Source: an uncultured Lachnospiraceae bacterium (GTDB lineage Bacteria; Bacillota; Clostridia; Lachnospirales; Lachnospiraceae). From it: DNA of 64,000 nt. A model generated the notes under the pieces. It did not search any database and was not told the origin of the DNA. It was given only the letters and a program-made list of their open reading frames with translations. The position numbers and the translations under genes are program-made. Positions 6,664 to 32,753 of the stretch are shown here, piece after piece; position 1 is the stretch's first letter; every line of letters starts with the position of its first letter. The stretch spans positions 1-64,000 of the forward strand of contig CANPZI010000009.1 in the NCBI GenBank assembly GCA_947588995.1, in the 5' to 3' direction.

Positions 6664-9591
6664 ATGAGTTCAGTCAAAATTAAGTTTTTTCATTTCATAA
6701 GAAATATTGAAAAAAGAACGGTTTTTATTGCAATTGCGCTCGCTTTTGCGATTGCATATTACATTAATCCGCTGACCAATGTTGATTTGACAGAGTGGAA
6801 CAGAACTTTTTGCTCAGCAGCTTTGGCCGGTATATCTATTCATGCAAGAATAGCTAATTTCTATAGGCTGTTCTTTTTGTATCTGCCGATATTGGCGGCT
6901 GCAATCATCGCTGTTTTAACAGTCTTATTCCAATATAGAGAAAACTATAAGGAAATATATTCTAAATTCAGTGTATTTATATTTATCATGACAATCGCAT
7001 CGTATATTTCCCGCTATGCTTCTGATTATGAGGAAGTAAATAATAATCCTATGCTGCGGTGCATCTTGATTTTTATGCTGATGCTCAGCGTCATATCTTT
7101 TATCGATAGAAAACAGAAAATGTGCTTTCAAGATACGGTTTTGCTGTTTATTACTTACGTTACAGTTGTGACTGTTTCAGAAATGCTGTTTCAAGCAGAT
7201 AATACCAGAGCCGCAGCAGTGGTACTTGTTTTGCTCGTGATGCTGTGCTTAAAGACAGGGGATAAAGTATCATCATATTTGAAATCGTTAGTTTGTTTGT
7301 TGCTGTGGCTTCCCGCGGTGATTCGTGCAGCTCTCGAAGGTATCTATATACTTACAGAACATGGGCGCGGAATTGAACGTTATTTCACACATCTTACCAG
7401 AACTTCTTTAGTAGTTATTGTCGCTGCGTTTCTGATTGCATGGCTGATTCAAAAAAAGAACTGGAATATTTCAGCATTCGGCTATATCGGTGCCATTATC
7501 AGTTTTACATCCATCAGCGCTTTGCCATATGGCTATCAATATACGTATTCTTATTCAAGCATGGCGAATATTTATGAATTGGGTAATGCAGCAGTGGCAA
7601 TGGATACCTATCTGTATGGGAAATTGCCAATCATAGATTACTTTTCCGCTCATGCACTGGGAGATGTCTGGACAAGATTAATCTATTGCTTTGTGAATGG
7701 CGACATGAAAGGCATACTTGTCAATCCCTATGGAGGATTAGCCACCATAGTGGCGTTTGTGATACTGTTCTTTATGATCAAGCAGATTTTTGATGAAGAT
7801 ATTGCCGTACTGTATGTGCTTCTTTTTCCGGGATTCTTAACGGGAATTAAATGGGTCAGTGTGTGCAGCATAGCTATTGCAATGCTTATTTATGTTCTAA
7901 AAAAGCCGTCGGCTAAATCTTATCTGGCATTTTGGGTGTGTATACTGATAGGCGCTTTTCATACTTACGATGAAGGGATTTCGTTGGGAGTGGCATGTAT
8001 ATTGGCTTTTGGCATAGGGAACATACTGCAGAAGGAATGGACGAAGATAAGAAACTTTATGCTGACAGGTGCGGCGGTTGGTGCGGCAGTCTTGTTATTA
8101 TATTGCTGCTATGCACTGGTTACCGGACTTCCGGCAGCAGGGAGAATGAGAGAATGGATGTCGGTCAGTGTGGGATCCAGTTCGTCATGGGCGACAGCTG
8201 ATTTTGGAGATCCGACGACGTTTGCTTTCTTATTGTCATATTTTATCGTTCCCATCACGGCGGTTATGATCATGGTTTTTGTGATTGTCAGGTATATTCA
8301 GAACCGGAAAAACTATGAACTGGTCGTATTGACAGCAGCTTTTGCACTTGCAGAAATTCTATATATTACCAGAACGATTGTTTATCATAATTTGGTAACG
8401 CGTGGGGAGTCGGGAGTGCTGTTGAACTTTATCCATTGGACTGTTTCGATATATGTTCTGTATAGGATGACAGAAAAAGAAAAGAGCAGCAGCATAAAAC
8501 TTTTTGCTTTTACCGGAACCATGATGTTGGTCATTTTGGCGGAAGGAACCGCTGTTACGGGGAACTGGCCTTCAGCGAATTCTTCTTTACTTAACAGAGG
8601 CTTAAATGCTGCAGGTTCATGGAATATTACCGATGATGCCGCTTACAATAAAGGCCAGCAGAGGATTGTATATGATGAGGACACATTGCATTTAGTGAAT
8701 TCTTTTAAAAACGTTTTTGATACATTAATGAATGATGATCAAACATTTTTAGATTTTGCGAATATCACATCCATGTATTTGATGACGGGGAGAACAAGAC
8801 CCTGCTATGTAGGGCAGTCGCCGAGTTTACTCACGGATTTGTATTCGCAGGAATGCTTCTTAGAGGAAATTTCTCAGTATGATTGTCCGCTTGCAGTGCT
8901 TGGAACTACGGAGACGTCATATTTGCAGCAGATGGTGGGAATACCGCATAACATCAGATATTACAAGATAGCGGAATACATATTCAATCACTATAGGCCG
9001 TTGCTTAAATTCGGCGAGTTTGCGATTTGGTGCAGGAATGACGTTTATGATGCGTATTTTGAGAAAGCAGCTGGCTGTGGCTTTGCTGAGGCGGGATATA
9101 CATTGGCTGATTTTGGATACGATTTTACAACCTGCCGCACGGACGAGAACGGAAATGTTCAATTTACATATGCTCCATACCACTCATTTAATTTGCAGGA
9201 TATTCCGTATATATGGGCTAATTATGATGATTACAATGCAAGTGATAATGAAGTGCTGTTGGAAATTCCGGTTTCAGAGACCAACAGATATGTGTTCGAC
9301 GGTTCTCAGAAGTATGTAAGTGAAAATGGAAATTATTTGGCATTTGGCATGACTAATGTAACAGAAAATGACATGTCTGTTAATATGGTATTCTATGACT
9401 CTCATAGCGATGAGGGAGGAGGCAGGGCGCAATATCAGTTTAATGTTAAACCGGGAGAAAACAATTATTTGATTAGAATAAGCGCAGACTATTTTTGGGA
9501 TATATTCAATGTAGATACCATACTTTTTGAATGCGATGAAGGTGTAGCGGTTAAGAATGTAAAAATATTGGAAGGAGAGGGAACGCTATAA
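6664..9591 (+). CDS. Large polytopic membrane protein, GT-C glycosyltransferase-like
   Basis: A 975-residue protein with a dozen or more predicted transmembrane helices over about residues 18-620, then a soluble C-terminal domain of about 350 residues rich in aromatic and acidic residues. The stretch GKLPIIDYFSAHALGD (residues about 319-334, after a helix) resembles the 'P-x-x-D-F/Y-x-x-x-H' loop of GT-C polyprenol-phosphate-sugar glycosyltransferases, so a role in decorating a surface polysaccharide is possible. That is inference from a short motif. Base composition and codon use are strikingly AT-rich compared with hemZ before it and the genes after it, a sign of horizontal transfer. It stands alone, without other glycan genes. 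Confidence 0.6.
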   Translation: MSSVKIKFFHFIRNIEKRTVFIAIALAFAIAYYINPLTNVDLTEWNRTFCSAALAGISIHARIANFYRLFFLYLPILAAAIIAVLTVLFQYRENYKEIYSKFSVFIFIMTIASYISRYASDYEEVNNNPMLRCILIFMLMLSVISFIDRKQKMCFQDTVLLFITYVTVVTVSEMLFQADNTRAAAVVLVLLVMLCLKTGDKVSSYLKSLVCLLLWLPAVIRAALEGIYILTEHGRGIERYFTHLTRTSLVVIVAAFLIAWLIQKKNWNISAFGYIGAIISFTSISALPYGYQYTYSYSSMANIYELGNAAVAMDTYLYGKLPIIDYFSAHALGDVWTRLIYCFVNGDMKGILVNPYGGLATIVAFVILFFMIKQIFDEDIAVLYVLLFPGFLTGIKWVSVCSIAIAMLIYVLKKPSAKSYLAFWVCILIGAFHTYDEGISLGVACILAFGIGNILQKEWTKIRNFMLTGAAVGAAVLLLYCCYALVTGLPAAGRMREWMSVSVGSSSSWATADFGDPTTFAFLLSYFIVPITAVMIMVFVIVRYIQNRKNYELVVLTAAFALAEILYITRTIVYHNLVTRGESGVLLNFIHWTVSIYVLYRMTEKEKSSSIKLFAFTGTMMLVILAEGTAVTGNWPSANSSLLNRGLNAAGSWNITDDAAYNKGQQRIVYDEDTLHLVNSFKNVFDTLMNDDQTFLDFANITSMYLMTGRTRPCYVGQSPSLLTDLYSQECFLEEISQYDCPLAVLGTTETSYLQQMVGIPHNIRYYKIAEYIFNHYRPLLKFGEFAIWCRNDVYDAYFEKAAGCGFAEAGYTLADFGYDFTTCRTDENGNVQFTYAPYHSFNLQDIPYIWANYDDYNASDNEVLLEIPVSETNRYVFDGSQKYVSENGNYLAFGMTNVTENDMSVNMVFYDSHSDEGGGRAQYQFNVKPGENNYLIRISADYFWDIFNVDTILFECDEGVAVKNVKILEGEGTL

Positions 9592-10289: not shown

Positions 10290-10336
10290 AGATTGTCAGC
10301 GTGCGACAAACCGAGGCTGTCATGAAGGCGGGGTAT

Positions 10337-10876
10337 ATGGACAGGAATCAGTACTTTGAGGAAATCTACAGCAGCTATCATGATAAGATTTACCATTTTA
10401 TTTACTTCAAAATATACGACGCGCAGATTGCGGAGGATTTGACAAACGATGTCTTCCTGGCGGCATACAAGAATCTGAACAGATATGACGCCGACAAGAG
10501 TTTTATCACGACATGGCTCTATGCGATAGCCTGCAACCGTTTGAAAAATTACTACAAGAGCAGCGGCAGAAAACAGGAGTACAGCATTGAGAACTGGCAT
10601 GAAAAATATGAAGATGCAGACATGGCGAACGACAGTATGCTGGAACGGCAGGAGTGGCGCATCCTGTTATTGGAAGCGCTTTTGCAGCTGCCGGAAAGGA
10701 ACCGAAAAATTGTGTTGATGAAATACTATGACAATATGACGTCGAAAGAGATCGGACAAAAGCTGGATCTTTCGCCCGGCAATGTCAGAATTATTTTAAA
10801 GCGGTCACTGGAACTGATGAAAAAGGAACTGAAAGTCATTGATGACGGAGGGAGACAAAATGGCGGAACTGTTTAG
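10337..10876 (+). CDS. ECF-like RNA polymerase sigma factor heading the NHLM export operon
   Basis: A 179-residue sigma-70 family protein made only of region 2 (DKIYHFIYFKIYDAQIAEDL...TTWLYAIACNRLKNYY) and region 4 (LPERNRKIVLMKYYDNMTSK followed by EIGQKLDLSPGNVRIILKR, a helix-turn-helix), the ECF layout. No anti-sigma gene lies beside it. Upstream in-frame starts exist at 10301 (GTG) and 10322; 10337 is favoured by AAGGCGGGG just before it. The gene overlaps the HlyD-like gene by 17 bp, so sigma factor and exporter are co-expressed. It is the best candidate to read the unusual twin promoters at 18331-18414 (inference). Confidence 0.88.
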   Translation: MDRNQYFEEIYSSYHDKIYHFIYFKIYDAQIAEDLTNDVFLAAYKNLNRYDADKSFITTWLYAIACNRLKNYYKSSGRKQEYSIENWHEKYEDADMANDSMLERQEWRILLLEALLQLPERNRKIVLMKYYDNMTSKEIGQKLDLSPGNVRIILKRSLELMKKELKVIDDGGRQNGGTV

Positions 10877-12779
10877 AAAGTCTTCTTTGGAAAAATTATC
10901 ATCGCCCGAACAGCTGGATAAGATGATCGTGATCACGCCGCCTTCTTTTTGGATGGCGTTGATCGGGGCAGGAGTAATCATTGCCGGCGCGCTGGCGTGG
11001 TCCATTCTGGGGCGGCTGCCGATCAATGTGGAAGCGCAGGGGATCTATGTGAATAACGGGGGCGTGTATTCGGTATACGCTGAGTCGGCCGGCGTGGTTG
11101 AGAGACTGGCGGTGCAGAAGGGGGACGAGATCAAAGAGGGGGAAGTCATAGCCTACCTGAACGCGGACGATCTGGAACAGAAGCTGGGCAATTATGAGAC
11201 GAGAATAGCGAATATAGAGGCGGTTACGATGGATTCTCAGGGCGACGTTGTCACGGCGGACAATGAGAGTCTGATTGAGATTAAAGGGCAGCTTTTGACG
11301 ATCGACCAGAATCTGTGGCAGGATCAGCAGCTCCTGGAGATGTATTCGGAAGATGTGGCCGCGCAGCGGCAGGTGACTGACGAGGCGGAACGGAGTCTGC
11401 AGGAAGCGGAAACCGCTTATTACAACAGCCTGAATACCGGGGACAGTACCGGTGAACAGCTGGCATACACGGAGGCGCAGAACGATCTGGCCAATGCGAG
11501 CGCCTATCTGCAGGAGGCCTATGCCGGCCTCGACCAGGCGAATGTGGCCTACAGTCAGGCGAAAGGGCAGTACCAGAACATAGAGGAGCAGTATGACAAG
11601 CTGGTGGCGCAGGAACAGGCGCTGCAGAAGGTCGCTGATGACGCGTGGGCCGCGTTCGCGGCGAAATATAAGGAGATAAAGCACTCCGAACCGGAACGGA
11701 ATAATGCCTCAGAGACTTACAAATCTGAATCGGATGAACCTCTCAAATCGCTGCTGGAAACCTATGGCACGGCGCAGACCGCCTATGAGAGTTATGTCGA
11801 GGAGGGACGGGAAGCCAAAGCGCAGCTTGCCTCCAGCATGGGGCAGTATGAAGTGGAGATGGATGCGGCGAGAGAGACGCGCGACAACTATCAGGATGAT
11901 GTGAACAGCTATGCCTGGCAGAAAGAAAGCGCGGCGGCGGACTATGAGGGCGCCAAGGACAATTATCTGGCGCGTCTTGCCGCGCTGGGAGCGGCACAGA
12001 CCAGACAGACGCAGCTGTCCAACGACTACTCGAGGGCGCTGAATACATACAGCACGGAGCAGGCGAAGCTCGACAATCTGCTGGATTCCCTCGCCAGAGC
12101 GGAGGTTCAGGTGGAGAGTGACAAGCGGAGCCTGGACGAACAGACGGCGACGATATACAGTCAGTTTGCCGCAACCAAGGCGGCTGCCATCGATCAGCTT
12201 GCGCTGGAATCCGAGCAGTATCAGGACCAGTTGGACAAATGTGTGGTGACTTCGACGGTGAGCGGCAAGGTGACGGACATAGCGGTGGTGCAGGGCAGCG
12301 CCGTCAACCAGGGCAGCGAGCTGCTTAAGGTACAGCAGGTCGGGGAAACGGAGAATGAAGTGATCTGTTATGTGCCGTTAAATGACGGCAAGAAGATCAC
12401 GGAAGGGATGGAAGTGCTGCTCTATCCGTCAACGGTGAACAAGCAGGAATACGGGCACATGAGCGGCACCGTGCTGCATGTGGATCCCTATGTGGCATCG
12501 ACCGAGGATCTGCGCAATAAGCTGGGCAACGACAGTCTGGTGCAGGCTTTCCAGCAGAGCGGCCCTGTGGTGGCCGTGGAGTGCAGGCTGCAGAAGGATG
12601 CTTCCACGAGCAGCGGATATTACTGGTCGAGCGACAAGGGCAGCGATGTGGCGCTGGCGGAAGGCACGATGATGGAGGCCAGCATTGTCCTGGAGGAAAA
12701 AGCGCCGATTACCATGTTAGTGCCATATATCAAGGAAAAGCTGACCATCAAGACCGAGGACAGTCAGGAGAAAGAATAA
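10860..12779 (+). CDS. NHLM-type bacteriocin export membrane-fusion protein (HlyD family)
   Basis: A 639-residue membrane-fusion protein. An N-terminal cytoplasmic segment is followed by a transmembrane helix (about residues 26-50, 'FWMALIGAGVIIAGALAW'), a first lipoyl/barrel half ('GVVERLAVQKGDEIKEGEVI'), a very long Ala/Gln/Glu-rich coiled coil (about 100-455), and the second lipoyl half ('TVSGKVTDIAVVQGSAVNQG'). This is the arrangement of the NHLM bacteriocin system secretion protein family. It pairs with the two following ABC proteins to carry leader-cleaved peptides out of the cell. The start at 10860 follows GGAGGG and overlaps the sigma factor gene. Confidence 0.9.
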   Translation: MAELFRKSSLEKLSSPEQLDKMIVITPPSFWMALIGAGVIIAGALAWSILGRLPINVEAQGIYVNNGGVYSVYAESAGVVERLAVQKGDEIKEGEVIAYLNADDLEQKLGNYETRIANIEAVTMDSQGDVVTADNESLIEIKGQLLTIDQNLWQDQQLLEMYSEDVAAQRQVTDEAERSLQEAETAYYNSLNTGDSTGEQLAYTEAQNDLANASAYLQEAYAGLDQANVAYSQAKGQYQNIEEQYDKLVAQEQALQKVADDAWAAFAAKYKEIKHSEPERNNASETYKSESDEPLKSLLETYGTAQTAYESYVEEGREAKAQLASSMGQYEVEMDAARETRDNYQDDVNSYAWQKESAAADYEGAKDNYLARLAALGAAQTRQTQLSNDYSRALNTYSTEQAKLDNLLDSLARAEVQVESDKRSLDEQTATIYSQFAATKAAAIDQLALESEQYQDQLDKCVVTSTVSGKVTDIAVVQGSAVNQGSELLKVQQVGETENEVICYVPLNDGKKITEGMEVLLYPSTVNKQEYGHMSGTVLHVDPYVASTEDLRNKLGNDSLVQAFQQSGPVVAVECRLQKDASTSSGYYWSSDKGSDVALAEGTMMEASIVLEEKAPITMLVPYIKEKLTIKTEDSQEKE

Positions 12780-12788
12780 GGGAGAGCC

Positions 12789-14933
12789 ATGGATAAAAAA
12801 TATGCAAAAACGCCCACGGTATTTCAGATGGAAGCTACCGAGTGCGGGGCGGCTTCCCTGTCGATGGTGATGGGCTATTACGGACGGCATATGGCCTTAG
12901 AGCAGATGCGCATCGAGACCGGCGTCTCCAGAGACGGCTGCAATGCCAAAAATATCCTGCGCGCCGCCAGAAAATTCGGCATGGAGGCGAAAGGGTACCG
13001 CAAAAGTCTGGAGGGCCTGCTGGAGTGCAAGCCGCCCTGTATTATTCACTGGAATTTCAACCATTTTGTCGTGTGGGAGGGCGTAAAGGGAAACTATGCC
13101 TACATCAACGATCCGGCGATGGGAAGGCGGAAACTCACGCTGGAGGAGATCGATGACTGTTTTACCGGCATTGTGCTTACCTTTGAAGTCGCGGCAGGAT
13201 TTGAAAAACTCCGGCAGAAGAGGACGCTGTTTGCGTTCGCAAGCGCCAGATTAAAGGGGCAGTACGCCGCGCTGATTGCCCTGGTCGTCATCGGCCTTTT
13301 TCTGGTCTTTCCCGGCCTGGTGATCCCGGTGTTTTCGCAGGTGTTTATCGACAATATTCTGCTGGGCGGCAATACCGGGTGGATGAGCGCTTTCCTCGCC
13401 GCGATGTGTTTTACGGTGCTGTTTCAGGCCGCGCTGACTTATTACCGGGGGATGCTGCTGCAGAAACTGCAGAATAAAATGGCGCTGATCTCTGCCCACG
13501 GCTTCCTGACGCATATGTTCCGGCTGCCGATGAGTTTCTTTGACCAGAGATATTCGGGCGATCTGGCAGACCGCGTGAATAATAATAACAACGTGAATAC
13601 GTTTCTGGCGGGCGATCTGGCGGAGACGGTGTTGAATATTCTGGTGGCGGCGTTCTATCTGCTCTTACTCCTGGTGTACAGTCCGCTTCTGACCCTGATC
13701 GGCGTGGCTAGCGTTGCGCTGAATCTGCTGATCGTCAAATTCGGCTCGGATGCGATTTCCAGTTATACCATGAAGCTGCAGCAGGATCAGGGCAAGCTGG
13801 CGGGCGCGGTGTTCGCCGGTCTGAATATCACGAGTACCCTGAAAGCCTCCGGGGTGGAGAATGAGTACATCGGACGGATTCAGGGATATTATGCCAAGAC
13901 CATTCTGCTGGAACAGCAGGTTGGGAAAAAGCAGCAGATGTTGGATGCGATTCCGGAGACGGCGCAGCAGATCGGCAACGTGCTGGTGATGATGGCGGGC
14001 GGCGTGCTGGTGATTCAGGGCAGGATGACGGCAGGTATGTTGGTGGCCTACACGAGTCTCCTTGCCTCCTTTACCGAGCCGATCAACCAGTTGGTCGCTT
14101 TTATCCAGAAGATGCAGACGGCCAAGGCGGATATGAGCCGTGTGGAAGATATCATGAAATATGCGGAGGATGAAAAGTACGCGGAGCATGAGACTGTCCC
14201 CATGACCGCGAAGCTGACGGGCGACATAGAATTGCGGGACATTGCTTTCGGTTACAGTATTCTGGAAAAACCGCTGGTGGAAAATTTCAGTTTTCATCTT
14301 CCCTGCGGCAGTTCCATTGCCTTTGTGGGGGCTTCCGGGTGCGGCAAGTCCACGGTATCCAAGGTGATCAGCGGCTTATATCTGCCGTGGTCCGGGGAGG
14401 TTCTGATGGACGGTGTCGACAGCCGTAAGATCCCGAAGGAGATTCTCTCCTCCAGCGTCTCTACGGTGAGTCAGAGCATCACGCTGTTTTCCGGCACGAT
14501 TCGGGATAATCTCACGATGTGGAACCGCAATATCATGGATGAGGATATGGTGCGGGCGGCCAAGGATGCCTGCATTCATGATGTGATCACCTCCAAACCC
14601 GGCGCGTATGATTTCGTGCTGACAGAGGGAGGCGGCAACCTGTCCGGCGGACAGAGACAGCGGCTGGAAATCGCCAGAGCGCTGGTGACCAATCCCAGTA
14701 TTCTGATTATGGATGAAGCTACCAGCGCCTTAGACCCGATTGTGGAAAAAAAGATTATCGACAATATCAAGCGTCGTGGCTGCACCTGTGTGATCGTGGC
14801 GCACAGACTGTCCGCCATTCGGGACTGCGACGAGATCATCGTGATGGAGCACGGCAAGATCGTCCAGCGGGGGACGCATCAGGAGCTGGCACAGAAGGAA
14901 GGGCACTATCAGAGGTTGATTCAGAACATCTAG
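12789..14933 (+). CDS. NHLM-type peptidase-containing ABC transporter (C39 protease, permease, ATPase)
   Basis: A 714-residue exporter in three parts. The N-terminal C39 peptidase has its catalytic Cys in MEATECGAASL (C19), His in HWNFNHFVVWEG (H92) and Asp in YINDPAMG (D108). A six-helix transmembrane domain covers about residues 155-430. The ATPase has Walker A GASGCGKST, signature LSGGQRQR and Walker B ILIMDEATSALD. C39 peptidases cut leaders after Gly-Gly, matching the two Gly-Gly precursors encoded downstream on the other strand. It matches the NHLM family peptidase/ATP-binding protein and lies 9 bp after the HlyD-like gene. All catalytic residues are present. Confidence 0.95.
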   Translation: MDKKYAKTPTVFQMEATECGAASLSMVMGYYGRHMALEQMRIETGVSRDGCNAKNILRAARKFGMEAKGYRKSLEGLLECKPPCIIHWNFNHFVVWEGVKGNYAYINDPAMGRRKLTLEEIDDCFTGIVLTFEVAAGFEKLRQKRTLFAFASARLKGQYAALIALVVIGLFLVFPGLVIPVFSQVFIDNILLGGNTGWMSAFLAAMCFTVLFQAALTYYRGMLLQKLQNKMALISAHGFLTHMFRLPMSFFDQRYSGDLADRVNNNNNVNTFLAGDLAETVLNILVAAFYLLLLLVYSPLLTLIGVASVALNLLIVKFGSDAISSYTMKLQQDQGKLAGAVFAGLNITSTLKASGVENEYIGRIQGYYAKTILLEQQVGKKQQMLDAIPETAQQIGNVLVMMAGGVLVIQGRMTAGMLVAYTSLLASFTEPINQLVAFIQKMQTAKADMSRVEDIMKYAEDEKYAEHETVPMTAKLTGDIELRDIAFGYSILEKPLVENFSFHLPCGSSIAFVGASGCGKSTVSKVISGLYLPWSGEVLMDGVDSRKIPKEILSSSVSTVSQSITLFSGTIRDNLTMWNRNIMDEDMVRAAKDACIHDVITSKPGAYDFVLTEGGGNLSGGQRQRLEIARALVTNPSILIMDEATSALDPIVEKKIIDNIKRRGCTCVIVAHRLSAIRDCDEIIVMEHGKIVQRGTHQELAQKEGHYQRLIQNI

Positions 14934-14945
14934 GAGGTTATGCAC

Positions 14946-17495
14946 ATGGAGTGTATCAGTATCCAGGGAGGCCAGATGTATGTTACCCCGGATAATACGG
15001 CGGTTTATGAGGTCGCAGAAGGGCATGTGCTGGTGTATCTGTTCCCCTATACAGACCAAAAAGCGGGAAGAAGGCTGTTTTTGGCGGAGATGACCGAGGG
15101 GGAGCAGATCCCCGGTTTCGCGGCTGACGAAGGGCAGCTCGGCGTATGGAGACTCGGCATGGTCGCGCTGGACAAAGCACAGATTCTGGTGCGCGGGGAG
15201 CGGCAGACGGATGAGGACAGAGAGAGATTCGCCGCCCGTGTCGGTGTCAGGCTTGCGGACGTGTCGGAGTATACGGAGCAGCTCATAGAGAAGTACAACA
15301 TCAACATCATCAAGGAAGAGGGCTATATCTACGCCACCGCGAGGGAGCAGAAGAACACTTACGAGAAAAGCCTCGAGATTATCTACCGGCTGTTCCGTTC
15401 CAAAAGAGAGAAGCAGATGACGCCGGAATCCGGAAACCGGGTCTATGACAGTCTGGCCTGGCTGTGCGACCGGATGAATATTTCGATGGCGAGTTACGAC
15501 AAGATTCAGGAGTGCTGCGGTCGCCGCTTCACCGTCGCCGATGTGGCGAGAGTCTCGCATTTTATTCTGCGTGAGGTGGTGCTGGAGCCGCGCTGGTACA
15601 GGCGGGACAGCGGCCCGATCCTGGCTTATCGGCAAAAGGATCACACGCCGGTTCCCTGCGTCCCCGCGGGGCCGGGAAGATACATAGCCTACGATGTGCA
15701 AAAGCGGACGACCTGTCCGGTGGACGACGAGTTCGCACGGCAGCTCGGGGTGAAGGGGGAGATGCTCTACCGCCCTTTCCCGGACAAAAAGATCAATGCG
15801 AAAGACTTGTTTCTCTTTGGCATGAAGCAGGTGCATGGAAGCGATGTGGCGCGGTTTATTCTGCTGGCTCTTGTGGGGACGCTGGTTGGTCTGCTGATGC
15901 CGCTGATGAATGAGCAGCTCTACGACAGATTCATCCCCATGGGCAACCGCTCCGGTCTGATACAGATCTGTCTGGTGCTCTTAGCCTGCACGATCGGCAA
16001 CCTGAGTTTTACGATCGTCAAGAATCTGGCGGCTTTTCGAAGTATGAACGCCATGGAGTACGCGGTGCAGAGCGCGGCCTATGACAGGCTCTTTAATCTG
16101 CCGGAGAGTTTTCTGCGCAAGTATGATTCCGCCGATCTGGGGCAGAGAGTGATGGGAATTTCGGAGATCTACAATATGATTGCTGATGTGGCCATCAAGA
16201 GTCTGCTCAGCGCCGTCTTTTCCGTGATCTATCTGTTTAGAATGTTCGGCTATTCCAAACGGCTGAGCTGGATTTCGCTGCTGATGCTGCTTGCCTGCAG
16301 CGCGGTGATTGTGTGGATTGGCATCGTGCAGACCAAGTATGAGTCGAAGAAGATGGAGATCGACAGCAAGGCGAGCTCCATCATGTTCCAGTTTCTGACC
16401 GGCATCTCCAAGATCAGAATCGCGGGGGTGGAGAACCGGGCGTTATATGAATATCTGAAGCCCTACACGGAATCCCGCCGCATCAACATCCGCAAGGAGA
16501 GAATGTCCGTCGCCGTCAATACGCTGGTGCCGGCCATGAACACCGTGTTTTCCATTGTGCTGTACTATCTGATGATCAGGCACAGCATGTCGCTGTCCAT
16601 AGGTGCTTTTATGGGCTTTAATACGGCGTTCGGCGCTTTCTCCGGCGCGGTGCTGGAGATCGTCTCCGCCCTCCTGCAGCTCAATGATGTGAAGCCGGCC
16701 TATGACAGATGCAAAACCGTGCTGCAGGTTCTGCCGGAACTGGAGGAGGACACGGTGATGCCCGGCGCGCTGACCGGCGAGATTGAAGTAAACAACGTGT
16801 CTTTCTCGTATGACGAGACATCCGGCACGATTCTGCAGGATCTCTCCCTGCATATCCGGGCGGGAGAGTATATCGGCATCGTGGGCTCTTCCGGCAGCGG
16901 CAAATCCACGCTGCTGAAGCTGCTGCTGGGATTTGAGAAGCCGGATGTGGGTAAGATATACTATGACGGCAAAGACATCGACAGCATGGATAAACGTGAG
17001 CTGCGCAAGAAGTTCGGCGTCGTCCTGCAGGACGGCAAACTGATCAGCGGCAGCATCTACGACAACATTACGATCACGGCGCCCGGGGCGAAGATGGAGC
17101 AGGTGAAGCAGGTGGTAAAAGATGTGGGGCTGGAGGACGACATCAACCAGATGCCCATGGGGCTGCACACGGTACTGTCGGAGGGCAGCGGCACCATCTC
17201 CGGCGGCCAGCAGCAGCGTATCCTGATCGCCCGCGCCATCATGGGCAATCCCAGGATCATCTATTTTGACGAGGCCACATCCGCGCTGGACAATGTGACG
17301 CAGGCGATGGTGTGCGAGACCCTGGAGAAGCTGAAAGCGACGAGAGTGGTGATCGCGCACCGGTTGAGCACGGTGATGAACTGCGACAGGATACTGGTAT
17401 TGGAAAAAGGGACGCTGGTGGAGGAGGGCAGTTATCAGGAGCTGATGGACCAAAAAGGCAGATTCTATGAACTGGCGGTCCGGCAGATGGTCTAG
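14946..17495 (+). CDS. NHLM-type ABC transporter without peptidase (second ATPase/permease subunit)
   Basis: An 849-residue ABC protein. Instead of a C39 domain it has a ~290-residue N-terminal region that includes a cyclic-nucleotide-like beta segment (VYEVAEGHVLVYLF). Transmembrane helices follow (about 305-570), then an ATPase with Walker A GSSGSGKST, signature ISGGQQQR and Walker B IIYFDEATSALD. It matches the second ATP-binding protein of NHLM bacteriocin systems, which presumably forms a heterodimer with the peptidase-containing partner. AGGAGG directly after the previous stop lies 8 bases before ATG 14946 but only 2 before ATG 14940, so 14946 is chosen. It is convergent with the precursor genes. 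Confidence 0.92.
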   Translation: MECISIQGGQMYVTPDNTAVYEVAEGHVLVYLFPYTDQKAGRRLFLAEMTEGEQIPGFAADEGQLGVWRLGMVALDKAQILVRGERQTDEDRERFAARVGVRLADVSEYTEQLIEKYNINIIKEEGYIYATAREQKNTYEKSLEIIYRLFRSKREKQMTPESGNRVYDSLAWLCDRMNISMASYDKIQECCGRRFTVADVARVSHFILREVVLEPRWYRRDSGPILAYRQKDHTPVPCVPAGPGRYIAYDVQKRTTCPVDDEFARQLGVKGEMLYRPFPDKKINAKDLFLFGMKQVHGSDVARFILLALVGTLVGLLMPLMNEQLYDRFIPMGNRSGLIQICLVLLACTIGNLSFTIVKNLAAFRSMNAMEYAVQSAAYDRLFNLPESFLRKYDSADLGQRVMGISEIYNMIADVAIKSLLSAVFSVIYLFRMFGYSKRLSWISLLMLLACSAVIVWIGIVQTKYESKKMEIDSKASSIMFQFLTGISKIRIAGVENRALYEYLKPYTESRRINIRKERMSVAVNTLVPAMNTVFSIVLYYLMIRHSMSLSIGAFMGFNTAFGAFSGAVLEIVSALLQLNDVKPAYDRCKTVLQVLPELEEDTVMPGALTGEIEVNNVSFSYDETSGTILQDLSLHIRAGEYIGIVGSSGSGKSTLLKLLLGFEKPDVGKIYYDGKDIDSMDKRELRKKFGVVLQDGKLISGSIYDNITITAPGAKMEQVKQVVKDVGLEDDINQMPMGLHTVLSEGSGTISGGQQQRILIARAIMGNPRIIYFDEATSALDNVTQAMVCETLEKLKATRVVIAHRLSTVMNCDRILVLEKGTLVEEGSYQELMDQKGRFYELAVRQMV

Positions 17496-17515
17496 CCGCC
17501 GCACATGAGCGACAC

Positions 17516-17550
17516 AAAAAGATCCGGCAGCCCAAACGGCGTACCGGATC
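17516..17550 (-). terminator. Terminator of the precursor peptide genes
   Basis: GATCCGG (17521-17527) pairs with CCGGATC (17544-17550). Read on the minus strand the stem is followed by TTTTT (the complement of 17516-17520), so it ends the transcript of the two precursor genes in the convergent gap. The plus strand lacks a T-run here. Confidence 0.75.
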
Positions 17551-17591
17551 TGCTCTGCTGTATCTCTGGTGTGTTATGTACGATGGATGGC

Positions 17592-17903
17592 CTACCACTT
17601 GACACTGAAGATTTTTGCGAAACCCTTAAAGACATCGCCAAATCCATCCAATACATCGGCTATATCGCTGAATACGGAACCGCCCACGACAGCTTCCAGA
17701 TCGTCTTCGTTTAGGGAACCGTCCCCATCGCAGTACATATCCAGACCCTGGTGGAGAGCGGCGATATCCTCCATGTCCAGGTCTACGCCGTTCTCTTTCA
17801 GATATGCCTGCACATCCGTCTCACTCTCCTGCTTGAGCAGCGTTTCGGCAAAATCCTTGTCTGCCAGTAAAGTTTTCAGTTTTTCTTTCTGTTCATTTGT
17901 CAT
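17592..17903 (-). CDS. Nif11-type leader precursor peptide A2 (Gly-Gly cleavage site, Cys-free core)
   Basis: A 103-residue peptide. Residues 1-75 form a Nif11-like helical leader ending in 'NEDDLEAVVGG'. The predicted 28-residue core (76-103) starts SVFSDIADVLDGFGD and ends FAKIFSVKW: amphipathic, with five Phe and one Trp and no Cys. The leader is clearly related to that of A1 (shared 'ENG', 'D.EDI..L', 'DG.G.L..DDLE.V.GG' pattern) while the core is different. AGGAAGGTGACTTATC precedes the ATG. It lies 38 bp after A1 on the same strand, upstream of a minus-strand terminator and beside the NHLM exporter with its C39 protease. Unmodified bacteriocin or radical-SAM-modified RiPP are both possible. 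Confidence 0.85.
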   Translation of the reverse strand: MTNEQKEKLKTLLADKDFAETLLKQESETDVQAYLKENGVDLDMEDIAALHQGLDMYCDGDGSLNEDDLEAVVGGSVFSDIADVLDGFGDVFKGFAKIFSVKW

Positions 17904-17941
17904 GATAAGTCACCTTCCTTTATTTATTATATTATATGGTA

Positions 17942-18244
17942 TTAAGATAGATACACACGCCCGGCAGGACCGTGCCGAAGTGCTTCCCGTAATTTGAAGA
18001 GAGCCTCGCCCAGAGCGGGAGACACAGACGCGCCGCCGATCACGCTCTCCAGATCGTCGTCGGAGAGGTCGCCTTCACCGTCGTCGGTTTTCAGCGCGCT
18101 TTGGATGTCGGTGATCTCCACCGGACTTAATGTCAGCCCGTTTTCCATAAACAGTTTCTGCAACTCCTCCGGACTGTCTGCCTGCATCATTGCCTGGACA
18201 AAAGACTCTTCCGCAAACAGTTCCGCAATCTTCCCGTCGTCCAT
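17942..18244 (-). CDS. Nif11-type leader precursor peptide A1 (Gly-Gly cleavage site, Cys-free core)
   Basis: A 100-residue peptide. The leader (1-71) ends 'SDDDLESVIGG'. The predicted 29-residue core starts ASVSPALGEALFKLRE and ends RVYLS; it could form an amphipathic helix, has no Cys and little Ser/Thr. GAGGAGTGATACC before the ATG at 18244 fixes the start; an upstream in-frame extension falls inside the promoter -10. It would be transcribed from the minus-strand promoter at 18331-18359 with a leader of about 80 nt, together with A2. The Nif11 leader class is a family recognition from sequence pattern; export and cleavage by the nearby NHLM/C39 system is inferred. Confidence 0.82.
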   Translation of the reverse strand: MDDGKIAELFAEESFVQAMMQADSPEELQKLFMENGLTLSPVEITDIQSALKTDDGEGDLSDDDLESVIGGASVSPALGEALFKLREALRHGPAGRVYLS

Positions 18245-18330
18245 GGTATCACTCCTCTCTTCCTCTGATACGGGGTCGGCGGATGCCTGCGCCACACACC
18301 ACAGCGCCGCTGCCGCCGTTCTTATCTGTT

Positions 18331-18359
18331 TATACAACCCTGAGAGGTAAAGTGTTACA
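18331..18359 (-). promoter_or_regulatory. Minus-strand promoter of the precursor genes (TGTAAC-N16-TTGTATA)
   Basis: On the minus strand TGTAAC (complement of 18354-18359), 16 bases, then TTGTATA (complement of 18331-18337). The divergent promoter at 18386-18414 has the same two blocks with the same spacer. The -35 block carries the AAC typical of ECF promoters, and an AAATTTG block precedes it. Confidence 0.65.
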
Positions 18360-18385
18360 ACAAATTTGAAAAATTCCGAAAAATT

Positions 18386-18414
18386 TGTAACAAAAAGGCG
18401 GCGCGGCTTGTATA
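18386..18414 (+). promoter_or_regulatory. Plus-strand promoter of the radical SAM gene (TGTAAC-N16-TTGTATA)
   Basis: TGTAAC (18386-18391), 16 bases, then TTGTATA (18408-18414), about 22 bases before the annotated ATG. With its mirror copy it forms an inverted repeat (GTTAC...AAATTT / AAATTTGTAAC, 18354-18391) around an AT-rich centre that could serve both promoters as an UP element or regulator site. Confidence 0.65.
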
Positions 18415-18436
18415 TGTATATAAGAACAGATACAGC

Positions 18437-19525
18437 ATGAGCGGAGAGGACGGTAGGACAGGTATGGCGGACACGGCGAGGGAAGGCGGGACAGGATCCG
18501 GAGGAATGGGAAGAGAAAGGCAGGTCACAGACAGCCGCCGCAGGGCATATGATTCGCCGCGCCTACTCAATCTGGAGCTGACGACCAGATGCCCGCTGCG
18601 GTGTCCCCAGTGTTACTGTGAACTGGCAGGAGGCAGGGATATGCCGCTTGACACGGCGCTGTACTGGCTGGAGGAGGCTGCCCGAAACCACGTTGAGGAC
18701 ATCAGCTTAAGCGGCGGCGAAACCATGCTCTATGCGGATCTGGAGAAACTGATAGAGACCTGCAGCCGCCTGGGCATGGAGTCGAACATCGCCATCTCCG
18801 GCTACGGGGCGTCCGAGGAGAGACTGCGGCGATTGATAGACTGCGGTGTATCCCGTATCTTTGTTTCCTTAAACGGCAGCACGGAGGAGATAAACAGGCG
18901 CAGCAGAGACGGCTATGGACTGGCGCTGGAGGCTCTTAGGACGCTGCGGGAGATGCATTACGGGCAGACCTATATCAACTGGGTCATGCACTCTCATAAT
19001 ACGGCCGATTTCCCGAACCTCATTCGATTGGCGGAAACATGCGGCGCGGCGGCGGTCGTTGTGATGGTATTTAAGCCGGACGCGGCGCATCAGCGTTCGA
19101 GTATGCCGGGGACGGAGCAGATCAGGTGGATGGCGGAATATATCAGGGCATATCAGGGATCGGTAGAGATCAGGGTGGAATCGTGTTTCTCGCAGCTGTG
19201 CGCCCTGCTGGGGGACAGTTATTTTGTGAATCCCAACAGGGGGATCGCGAAAGGCTGCGGCGCAGGGCGTGACGGCATCAGCGTCAGCGTGGACGGGAAG
19301 CCCACCCCCTGCAGGCATTTGATGATAGAAGAGTCCTATCGGACGATCAGGGAGTATTGGGAGTCGTCGGCGGTATTAAGACAGCTCAGGGAGACGGAGG
19401 ACAGGATGGAAGAACCGTGCCGCAGCTGCAGGCTGCAGCGCTTCTGCCGCCCCTGCGTGGCGGTCTCCTGGCAGATGCGGGGCAGACTTTCCATGGGAGA
19501 GGAGAGTTGCGGTTTGTGGAAATAG
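18437..19525 (+). CDS. Radical SAM/SPASM protein, candidate precursor peptide maturase
   Basis: A 362-residue protein. The radical SAM cluster motif RCPLRCPQCYC (C52, C56, C59) is followed by SLSGGETML and a TIM-barrel-like middle. The C-terminal SPASM-type Cys set (GCGAGRDG..., PTPCRH, CRSCRLQRFCRPC) would hold auxiliary Fe-S clusters. Such proteins modify ribosomal peptides by epimerisation, thioether or C-C links, or residue excision. It is divergent from two Nif11-leader precursors and shares their promoter type, making it their likely maturase. Starts at 18464 or 18506 (GGAGG just before it) are possible, as the 18437 ATG has no clear ribosome site. Chemistry unknown: the cores lack Cys, so a thioether within the core is excluded. 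Confidence 0.85.
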   Translation: MSGEDGRTGMADTAREGGTGSGGMGRERQVTDSRRRAYDSPRLLNLELTTRCPLRCPQCYCELAGGRDMPLDTALYWLEEAARNHVEDISLSGGETMLYADLEKLIETCSRLGMESNIAISGYGASEERLRRLIDCGVSRIFVSLNGSTEEINRRSRDGYGLALEALRTLREMHYGQTYINWVMHSHNTADFPNLIRLAETCGAAAVVVMVFKPDAAHQRSSMPGTEQIRWMAEYIRAYQGSVEIRVESCFSQLCALLGDSYFVNPNRGIAKGCGAGRDGISVSVDGKPTPCRHLMIEESYRTIREYWESSAVLRQLRETEDRMEEPCRSCRLQRFCRPCVAVSWQMRGRLSMGEESCGLWK

Positions 19526-31097: not shown

Positions 31098-31241
31098 ATG
31101 AAACATATCAAGACACTGAACACGAGAGACTTAAAAGAGTCCATGAAGAAAGGCGGCTGCGGCGAGTGCCAGACTTCCTGCCAGTCCGCATGCAAGACGT
31201 CCTGCACGGTGGGCAATCAGACCTGCGAGAAAGCAAGATAA
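31098..31241 (+). CDS. scfA: SCIFF (six-cysteine) ranthipeptide precursor
   Basis: A 47-residue peptide starting MKHIKTLNTRDLKESMKKGG. Six cysteines follow at positions 21, 24, 28, 32, 36 and 43, the invariant SCIFF spacing. SCIFF peptides are nearly universal in Clostridia and are cross-linked by the neighbouring radical SAM enzyme into thioethers (ranthipeptide class). The gene lies directly upstream of the maturase. GGAGGATACGGGATC precedes the ATG. Physiological role is unsettled in the family; quorum-like signalling has been proposed. Confidence 0.97.
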   Translation: MKHIKTLNTRDLKESMKKGGCGECQTSCQSACKTSCTVGNQTCEKAR

Positions 31242-31289
31242 GAGTCCGGCGGGATGCAGTGAAAAAGATAGGAATTGTATATACGAAGC

Positions 31290-31318
31290 ATAAGCAGCGA
31301 TCGCGTGTCGCTGCTTAT
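31290..31318 (+). promoter_or_regulatory. Hairpin between scfA and scfB
   Basis: ATAAGCAGCGA (31290-31300) pairs perfectly over 11 bp with TCGCTGCTTAT (31308-31318), loop 7 nt. No strong T-run follows. It lies in the 111-bp gap between peptide and maturase genes and could be a partial attenuator or processing/stability element that keeps peptide message above enzyme message. Confidence 0.65.
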
Positions 31319-31352
31319 TATGCGTTTATCTATCGGGTTTGGGAGAACAGAA

Positions 31353-32753
31353 GTGATACATCAATACATCAATAACGGATATCATATTGTACTGGATGTC
31401 AACAGCGGCAGCGTGCACGTGGTGGACGAGGCGGCGTATCGTCTGATCCCTGTGGCGGAGCAGGCGCTTGACGCCGGATGCAGGACGGCGGAGGAGATTG
31501 CGGCCTATGCGTCCGGCAGGCTTTCCGACATGCCGACGGAGGAGCTGACGGAGACGGCGGAAGAGATTCTCGCGCTGCGGGATGCGGGGACGCTTTTTGC
31601 GGAGGACGGCTACGAGGAGTATATCGACAGTTTTAAGAATCGGGAGACGGTGGTGAAAGCGCTCTGCCTCCACATTGCGCACGACTGCAATCTCGCCTGC
31701 AGATACTGCTTCGCGGGAAAGGGAGAATACCATGGGGAGCGCGCGCTCATGAGCTATGAGGTGGGGAAGAAAGCGCTGGATTTTCTCGTGGCGAATTCGG
31801 GGAACAGGGTCAACCTGGAGGTGGATTTCTTCGGCGGTGAGCCGCTGATGAACTGGCAGGTGGTGAAAGACCTGGTGGCTTACGGCAGGAGTCTGGAGGA
31901 GCCGCACCACAAGAAGTTCCGCTTTACCCTGACGACCAACGGCGTGCTGCTTGACGACGAGGTGATGGCGTTTGCCAACCGGGAGATGGCGAATCTTGTC
32001 CTGAGCATTGACGGGCGAAAAGAAGTCCATGACCGGATGAGGCCGCACAGAGGCGGACAGGGCAGCTATGACGAGGTGCTGCCAAAATATAAGAAAGCGG
32101 CCGAGAGCAGGAACCAGATGAACTATTACGTGCGCGGCACTTTTACAAGATACAACCTCGACTTCGCCGAGGATGTGAAGCATCTGGCGGACGAGGGATT
32201 TGAACAGATCTCCATGGAGCCGGTGGTGGCGGCTCCCGCGGAAGACTATGCGATCCGCGAGGAAGATGTTCCGGCGCTGCTTTTGGAGTACGATAAACTG
32301 GCGCTTGAGTATATCCGCAGAAAAAAAGCAGGAAAAGGTTTCAATTTTTTCCATTTTATGATAGATTTAGAGGGTGGCCCCTGCGTGGCCAAGAGACTGT
32401 CGGGCTGCGGGTCGGGAACGGAGTATCTGTCCGTCACTCCCTGGGGAGACTTATATCCGTGCCACCAGTTCGTCGGGCAGGAGGAATTCCTGATGGGCAA
32501 TGTGGACGACGGTGTTGTCCGGACGGACTTAAGGGACACTTTCAAGTCGTGTAATGTCTATGCCAAGGAGAAGTGCAGGGACTGTTTCGCGAAATATTAC
32601 TGCAGCGGCGGCTGCGCCGCCAATGCCTACAATTTCAGCGGCAGCATCACCGGCGCCTACGACATCGGGTGTAAACTGCAGAGGAAACGCGTCGAGTGCG
32701 CGATCATGATAAAGGCGGCACTGGCCGATGAGGAAAAGGAGAAAATAGGATGA
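31353..32753 (+). CDS. scfB: SCIFF peptide maturase (radical SAM/SPASM thioether-forming)
   Basis: A 466-residue enzyme installing Cys-to-alpha-carbon thioether links in the SCIFF peptide. An N-terminal RiPP-recognition-like segment (IHQYINNGYHIVLDVNSGSV) is followed by the radical SAM motif DCNLACRYCFAGKG and FFGGEPLMN. The C-terminal SPASM cysteines (CVAKRLSGCGSG, YPCHQFVGQEEF, CRDCFAKYYCSGGC) hold auxiliary clusters. The GTG at 31353 is the likely start: GGGAG lies upstream and the family N-terminus begins there. It overlaps secDF by 4 bp. Confidence 0.96.
   Translation: MIHQYINNGYHIVLDVNSGSVHVVDEAAYRLIPVAEQALDAGCRTAEEIAAYASGRLSDMPTEELTETAEEILALRDAGTLFAEDGYEEYIDSFKNRETVVKALCLHIAHDCNLACRYCFAGKGEYHGERALMSYEVGKKALDFLVANSGNRVNLEVDFFGGEPLMNWQVVKDLVAYGRSLEEPHHKKFRFTLTTNGVLLDDEVMAFANREMANLVLSIDGRKEVHDRMRPHRGGQGSYDEVLPKYKKAAESRNQMNYYVRGTFTRYNLDFAEDVKHLADEGFEQISMEPVVAAPAEDYAIREEDVPALLLEYDKLALEYIRRKKAGKGFNFFHFMIDLEGGPCVAKRLSGCGSGTEYLSVTPWGDLYPCHQFVGQEEFLMGNVDDGVVRTDLRDTFKSCNVYAKEKCRDCFAKYYCSGGCAANAYNFSGSITGAYDIGCKLQRKRVECAIMIKAALADEEKEKIG

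Follow-up and report, generated by a model that had tools for sequence, protein, structure and literature searches.

The window analyzed here, a stretch of 64,000 nucleotides from the genome of an uncultured Lachnospiraceae bacterium (G000; 3.2 Mb in 71 contigs, the window being on contig C9), contains at positions 10337–19525 a candidate cluster for a ribosomally synthesized and post-translationally modified peptide (RiPP). The genes for an extracytoplasmic function (ECF) sigma factor, an HlyD protein, and two ABC proteins (ABC1 and ABC2) are followed by the precursor genes P1 and P2 on the minus strand and by a divergent gene for a radical S-adenosylmethionine (SAM)/SPASM protein. A preliminary description of this DNA had placed these genes within about 9 kb, and all of them are present with open frames.

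The ECF-type sigma-70 factor (10337–10876, plus strand; alternative in-frame starts at 10322 and 10301) scores 104.1 bits against the sigma70-ECF model (cut-off 42.9) and matches Sigma70_r2 and r4_2. The gene for the NHLM HlyD-type secretion protein (10860–12779, plus strand; TIGR03794, 258.3 bits, cut-off 156.2) starts inside the end of the sigma gene, which stops at 10876, and the overlap of an ECF-like sigma gene with an HlyD-like gene proposed earlier is thus borne out. ABC1 (12789–14933, plus strand; TIGR03796, 1027.3 bits, cut-off 853.3) combines a C39 peptidase (Peptidase_C39, PF03412) with a permease and an ATPase, and ABC2 (14940–17495, plus strand; TIGR03797, 856.4 bits, cut-off 709.4) comprises a permease and an ATPase. 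HlyD, ABC1, and ABC2 therefore all exceed the curated cut-offs of the NHLM exporter families. The intact C39 triad previously ascribed to ABC1 is recognizable by eye as Cys, His, and Asp, and ABC1 is expected to cleave the precursor after Gly-Gly and to export it. A hairpin with a T-run downstream of P1 (17515–17552, minus strand), seen by eye, is a likely terminator.

P1 (17592–17903, minus strand) consists of a 75-residue Nif11-like leader ending in VVGG and a 28-residue core with a C-terminal Trp. In P2 (17942–18244, minus strand), a Nif11-like leader ending in VIGG precedes a 29-residue core that does not end in Trp. The leaders can be aligned, and both end in Gly-Gly, after which cleavage by C39 is predicted. 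P1 and P2 score 26.7 and 24.0 bits against TIGR03798, below its cut-off of 32.3, and the Nif11 label denotes a likeness in sequence only. The earlier account of two Nif11-type Gly-Gly precursors with Cys-free cores is right about the Gly-Gly ends and the absence of Cys. The Cys-free cores also separate P1 and P2 from the SCIFF/ranthipeptide class with its Cys-rich core. NHLM exporters reportedly go with Nif11 leaders, an association ascribed to Haft in 2010. By eye, with no model search, no LanM, YcaO, or epimerase was seen among the open reading frames of the window, in agreement with the preliminary description, and no GNAT enzyme of the kind expected for the Orn/Lys acylation of a selidamide was seen by the same inspection.

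The radical SAM/SPASM maturase (18437–19525, plus strand; PF04055) is PqqE-like and has a CX3CX2C motif; the prenyltransferase-like domain that many relatives carry at the N terminus is missing from it. All positions at least 90% conserved in 41 relatives are kept except one (Ala for Pro at position 100), and eight conserved C-terminal Cys residues are enough for two auxiliary clusters. The structure model, in which the first 34 residues are disordered, is close to the SuiB and PqqE folds; the nearest folds are peptide maturases, and SuiB is the closest (PDB 5v1q, 5v1s, 5v1t; 16–17% identity). The protein scores 116.9 bits against the PqqE model (TIGR02109, cut-off 381.35), and no NCBIfam model was over its cut-off among the best 25 of 50 matches. 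PqqE, MftC, AhbD, and NirJ were rejected as model-based identities, all being under cut-off, and hence none of them fixes the reaction.

Related maturases and the C-terminal Trp

A scan of genome contigs with the radical SAM proteins of the window and of locus L035 gave 42 loci, mostly from Bacillota; Synergistaceae and Riflebacteria contribute a single record each. Many of them reach a contig end within the cluster, and kin enter the counts individually (L088 is nearly a copy of L110, and L080 is the contig of L035). BLAST found ABC1 or ABC2 in 27 loci (only 28–29% identical in L103 and L104), an ECF sigma factor in 15, UPF0489 in 19, isopentenyl diphosphate (IPP) isomerase in 8, and an extra domain, described below, in 18 (19 when counted by profile). 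A leader-only profile retrieved 107 precursor-like open reading frames from the 42 loci; 81 of them, in 27 loci, score at least 50 bits (hereafter strong-leader precursors), and 26 are weaker, a division chosen after the scores were seen. The preliminary description had named the co-occurrence of exporter, precursors, sigma factor, and maturase as a check of its proposal, and the frequencies of ABC1 or ABC2 (27 of 42), strong-leader precursors (27 of 42), and ECF sigma factors (15 of 42) speak for it; several of the remaining loci, though not all, are on short contigs. In the nearest relative, L073, the radical SAM protein is 81% identical and the gene order is that of the window.

Leader matches of at least 50 bits occur in two of 397 genomes of the family, G000 and G158, which are also the two with a radical SAM match beyond E = 1e-100; the leader profile included rows from these two genomes, and at most 14 candidates were scored per genome. 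Four further family genomes have radical SAM matches at 2e-56 to 6e-42, and the genus mates G060 and G370 have none at E ≤ 1e-40. TIGR03796 matches at E ≤ 1e-150 were found in 38 of 200 family genomes (23 above the cut-off) and not in G060, and ABC1 of the cluster is the sole such match in the window genome. Two more Nif11-like precursors, with cores that do not end in Trp, lie outside the cluster in this genome (contig C11, 190–483, locus L065; contig C13, 69034–69324, locus L064). They may share the exporter of the cluster. The 16-residue core of one of them is nearly identical to one near the NHLM exporter of genome G012 (L041, 5872–6051).

A C-terminal Trp is present in 76 of the 81 strong-leader precursors, leaving five exceptions, and in 4 of the 26 weak-leader ones. 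The same residue ends none of the 20 precursors from 28 family NHLM loci that were not selected via the radical SAM protein, and only 1 of 361 picked open reading frames of at least 200 residues in the radical SAM loci. The leaders in the control NHLM loci are mostly of another subtype, several of these loci come from one genome, two (L055 and L056) contain a distant prenyltransferase-radical SAM fusion, and L035 was excluded because it has the maturase. The idea that export accounts for the Trp end was rejected on the absence of such ends from these controls. Trp ends also occur in seven further genomes without a prenyltransferase match (L073, L076, L077, L084, L085, L092, and L096) in a search that recovered both positive controls, L080 and L082; four of the seven have no arginase match either. 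The preliminary description overlooked this C-terminal Trp rule, as it did the probable loss of the prenyltransferase domain.

Promoter motif and additional enzymes of related loci

The sequence TGTAAC-N18-GTATA precedes P2-P1 (18331–18359, minus strand) and the radical SAM gene (18386–18414, plus strand). These two putative ECF promoters are the only exact matches in the 3.2-Mb genome, in which the reversed pattern has none, and the motif was not found at the C11 and C13 orphan precursors. In L073 and L081 the identical pair occurs at both promoters, versions with N17 stand before precursor genes in L076 and L077 and before the radical SAM gene in L077, and the motif precedes a precursor in L085, the sigma factor of which is 33% identical. 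A looser pattern gave 16 matches over the 42 loci versus 4 for its reversed form. These patterns point to the motif as the likely target of the sigma factor of the cluster. The earlier proposal of a dedicated sigma factor gains support from the restriction of the motif to two cluster promoters, which together with the co-occurrence also favors the view that the locus is one self-contained system.

Other small genes lie beside the sigma factors of related loci. In L095 (5039–5353), L088 (1852–2193), L096 (4284–4526), L109 (4866–5156), L110 (1725–2018), L112 (7138–7425), and L113 (3687–3938), a small Gly-Gly-bearing protein is encoded immediately downstream of the ECF sigma gene or overlapping its end. 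They are possibly anti-sigma factors cleavable by the C39 peptidase of the exporter; the L095 protein, the sole one scanned, has no Pfam or NCBIfam match. Downstream of the radical SAM gene, L073 contains a partner-switching set of STAS, SpoIIE-type phosphatase, and HATPase proteins (11133–11465 and 15819–18044), and similar genes were seen by eye near the NHLM loci L036 and L037 and not in the window. A protein conserved in 16 of the 42 loci (L112, 5466–6602, and 15 others) matches DUF7005 in the three members scanned. Another conserved protein, of 12 loci, had been taken by eye for a GNAT enzyme and has no Pfam or NCBIfam match.

Larger relatives carry an extra N-terminal domain, for which a fold search gave an ABBA/Trp-prenyltransferase-like fold. 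The domain is often fused to the radical SAM protein, sometimes together with an IPP isomerase. By sequence, it has no Pfam match, its stand-alone copies have no NCBIfam match, and only one PHROG, without assigned function (E = 0.042), and PDB entries at E ≥ 0.34 were retrieved; the idea of a domain of an unrecognized kind was rejected once the ABBA-like fold emerged. The domain may prenylate Trp, a shared fold alone showing no function. The stand-alone proteins (L088, 6763–8082; L089, L102, L109, and L110) have a C-terminal tail that by eye resembles a nitrile-hydratase-type leader, and more distant prenyltransferase-radical SAM fusions lie near NHLM exporters in L055 (15634–17544) and L056 (4163–5821), where the precursors have no terminal Trp. 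The radical SAM proteins of the window and L073 group beside the prenyltransferase-fused protein of L081 in the tree (support 100/99), and because of this grouping the window protein has probably lost the domain.

The second additional enzyme is a putative UPF0489 peptide arginase, represented in L035 by a gene with 48 bits against PF12640 (cut-off 27) and 199.5 bits against NF052474 (under the cut-off of 350). It is expected to convert an Arg near the Trp to Orn. Of 40 precursors from UPF0489 loci, 37 have an Arg among their last seven residues, versus none of 14 from four loci (L073, L084, L085, and L092) whose genomes were searched and gave no PF12640 match (Fisher p = 2e-10, kinship ignored). 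P1 and P2, with no and one Arg in this segment, were excluded from the count. Also left aside were ten further loci for which no arginase is listed, several of them truncated at a contig end; 12 of their 27 precursors have the Arg. The window genome has no PF12640/UPF0489 match, the extra enzymes of the larger relatives were not found in it, and both the prenyltransferase domain and the arginase were probably lost in this lineage.

Elsewhere in the window, a peptide that by eye is Cys-rich and SCIFF-like (31098–31241) is followed by its maturase (31275–32753; TIGR03974, 773.3 bits, cut-off 425). A hydrophobic protein of 975 residues (6664–9591) has no Pfam or NCBIfam match, and the stretch around it is low in GC (0.42–0.43 versus 0.51–0.61 in other 2-kb steps).

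Proposed pathway and alternative explanations

The directly computed gene content, the co-occurrence of maturase and precursor, the Trp rule, the uniqueness of the motif, and the lack of the extra enzymes in the genome lead us to consider it rather probable that the locus is a compact RiPP system, in which the C-terminal Trp of a Nif11-type peptide is modified by a PqqE-like radical SAM enzyme and the product is secreted under control of the sigma factor. The sigma factor would read the TGTAAC-N18-GTATA promoters and switch on the divergent P2-P1 and radical SAM units. The maturase would recognize the Nif11-type leader and modify the Trp of P1, its probable target; ABC1 would then cut after Gly-Gly, and ABC1, ABC2, and HlyD would export the 28-residue peptide, which is probably bacteriocin-like or a signal. 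The window thus probably represents a minimal, reduced member of a family of Trp-ended precursors and their maturases, for which no name was found in the literature searched.

Several observations weigh against this proposal. Fifteen of the 42 loci have no strong-leader precursor, and they include contigs longer than 9 kb (L083, L087, L093, L095, L103, L104, L106, L107, and L114); the relatives are mostly metagenome-assembled genomes of untold completeness, which makes such absences soft. P2 does not end in Trp, and among the strong-leader precursors of G158 four of seven have the Trp and three have another end. The motif was first spotted by eye in the two divergent promoters and has no exact copy before the window sigma gene itself. 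It was not found before known cluster genes in ten sigma-bearing loci (L078, L084, L088, L095, L096, L101, L109, L110, L112, and L113; sigma factors 28–36% identical), and it lies ahead of a precursor in both L075 and L091, loci in which the available stretch shows no sigma factor. The Trp could also be a recognition handle instead of the modified residue. As for the chemistry, our favored guess by analogy, held with considerable doubt, is an oxidative decarboxylation like that of MftC, the model of which (TIGR03962) the maturase matches at 65.9 bits against a cut-off of 265; the alternative is a different reaction on the Trp or close to it. Mycofactocin is not known to involve a Nif11 leader or NHLM export.

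It is unlikely that the maturase forms a carbon-carbon crosslink between the terminal Trp and another core residue, as in the Lys-Trp of SuiB or the Glu-Tyr of PqqE. A fixed partner is disfavored by the lack of a conserved residue near the Trp in 77 cores, in which the preceding residue is of 12 types and each of the five positions before that is of 16–19 types. We give a similarly low probability to the maturase being an epimerase or another backbone-modifying enzyme, the Trp then being no more than a handle for docking or prenylation that was passed down from fused ancestors. The Trp-prenyltransferase-like domain of many relatives could by itself account for the Trp; on the other hand, the seven further genomes without a prenyltransferase match have Trp ends, and the eight conserved C-terminal Cys residues, with their capacity for two auxiliary clusters, argue against such an enzyme.

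That the locus is a decaying remnant, stripped of prenyltransferase and arginase and making no product, seems quite improbable. The probable domain loss, the Trp-less P2, and the genus mates without a maturase match would fit decay, and so would the ratio of nonsynonymous to synonymous rates (dN/dS) of P2 against L073, which is 0.85. Against it, the same comparison indicates purifying selection on the core genes (ABC1 0.085, ABC2 0.13, sigma factor 0.18, HlyD 0.23, radical SAM protein 0.27, and P1 0.28), and both promoters are retained. The ratio of P2 rests on 100 codons and a low dS of 0.14 (0.34–0.96 in the other genes), and its dN of 0.118 is below the 0.268 of P1; since the high ratio stems from the low dS, relaxed constraint or decay of P2 is possible rather than indicated. 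A mere chance adjacency, in which the exporter handles unmodified Nif11 peptides beside an unrelated radical SAM gene, is very improbable. In its favor, a close match to the maturase is absent from most family genomes that have an NHLM ABC1; against it, the leader type and the maturase co-occur and have in common a motif that the genome contains at no other place.

Returning to the Trp-modifying system, we tentatively extend it to a pared-down representative of a RiPP class not described so far, an extension that we regard as possible but short of probable. A dedicated PqqE-like enzyme would process the C-terminal Trp, perhaps by oxidative decarboxylation to an indolyl-vinyl amide, under a private ECF sigma factor; in fuller members this step and indole prenylation would be joined in one polypeptide, accompanied by IPP isomerase and Arg-to-Orn conversion. 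If so, an uncharacterized radical SAM family gains a precise substrate residue, fused radical SAM-prenyltransferase(-IPP isomerase) maturases enter RiPP chemistry, and a natural series emerges in which enzymes are lost along with their target residues. An NHLM exporter cluster would also gain a defined promoter and, as a candidate, a sigma factor of its own.

Comparison with known systems

In the open-licence PMC literature, we found no description of a terminal-Trp Nif11 family with this radical SAM protein, of Nif11 with NHLM in Lachnospiraceae, or of Nif11 with radical SAM and a sigma factor in the gut. The preliminary claim that the combination fits no nameable RiPP class holds in that no named family was found; it needs correction in that the available passages of one paper already describe anaerobe NHLP/Nif11 clusters with an N-terminal peptidase transporter, precursors, and several radical SAM proteins (PMC4289311). 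The window resembles these clusters in its peptidase transporter, precursors, and radical SAM protein; "sigma" does not occur in the main text of that paper, and its available passages do not name a terminal-Trp rule. The NHLM/Nif11 systems of Haft 2010 (PMC2887384) share the HlyD, ABC1, and ABC2 families and Nif11-like Gly-Gly leaders with the window. In the portions available, their partners are cyclodehydratase and LanM-type enzymes, and the terms "sigma factor" and "radical SAM" do not occur; the window precursors, as noted, are under the TIGR03798 cut-off.

Among radical SAM enzymes, MftC is likewise of the SPASM type and, in the passages at hand, acts at the C-terminal aromatic residue of its peptide (PMC5682303), which gives a precedent for the site, yet the residue is Tyr rather than Trp and the window protein scores far under the MftC cut-off. 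SuiB, described in available parts of the same paper as a K_W (Lys-Trp) cyclase, is nearest in fold and acts on Trp, but identity is low and the window family has no conserved partner residue. Peptide arginases are UPF0489 enzymes, some of which, according to the excerpts available, go with Nif11-type (N11P) precursors (PMC12703449); UPF0489 occurs in 19 of the 42 related loci and not in the window genome. PalQ, a C-terminal Trp prenyltransferase that in the accessible text is trans-isoprenyl diphosphate synthase-like and requires the terminal Trp (PMC13290415), has a parallel in the prenyltransferase-like domain of the larger relatives, whereas that domain is ABBA-like and often fused to the radical SAM protein; the window has neither feature. 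MppC is a Trp prenyltransferase guided by a Nif11-like leader in a lanthipeptide pathway (PMC12715784). The passages available on it name no fused radical SAM protein, and its leader-guided Trp prenylation resembles the pairing of a Nif11-like leader with a putative Trp prenyltransferase domain in the larger relatives.

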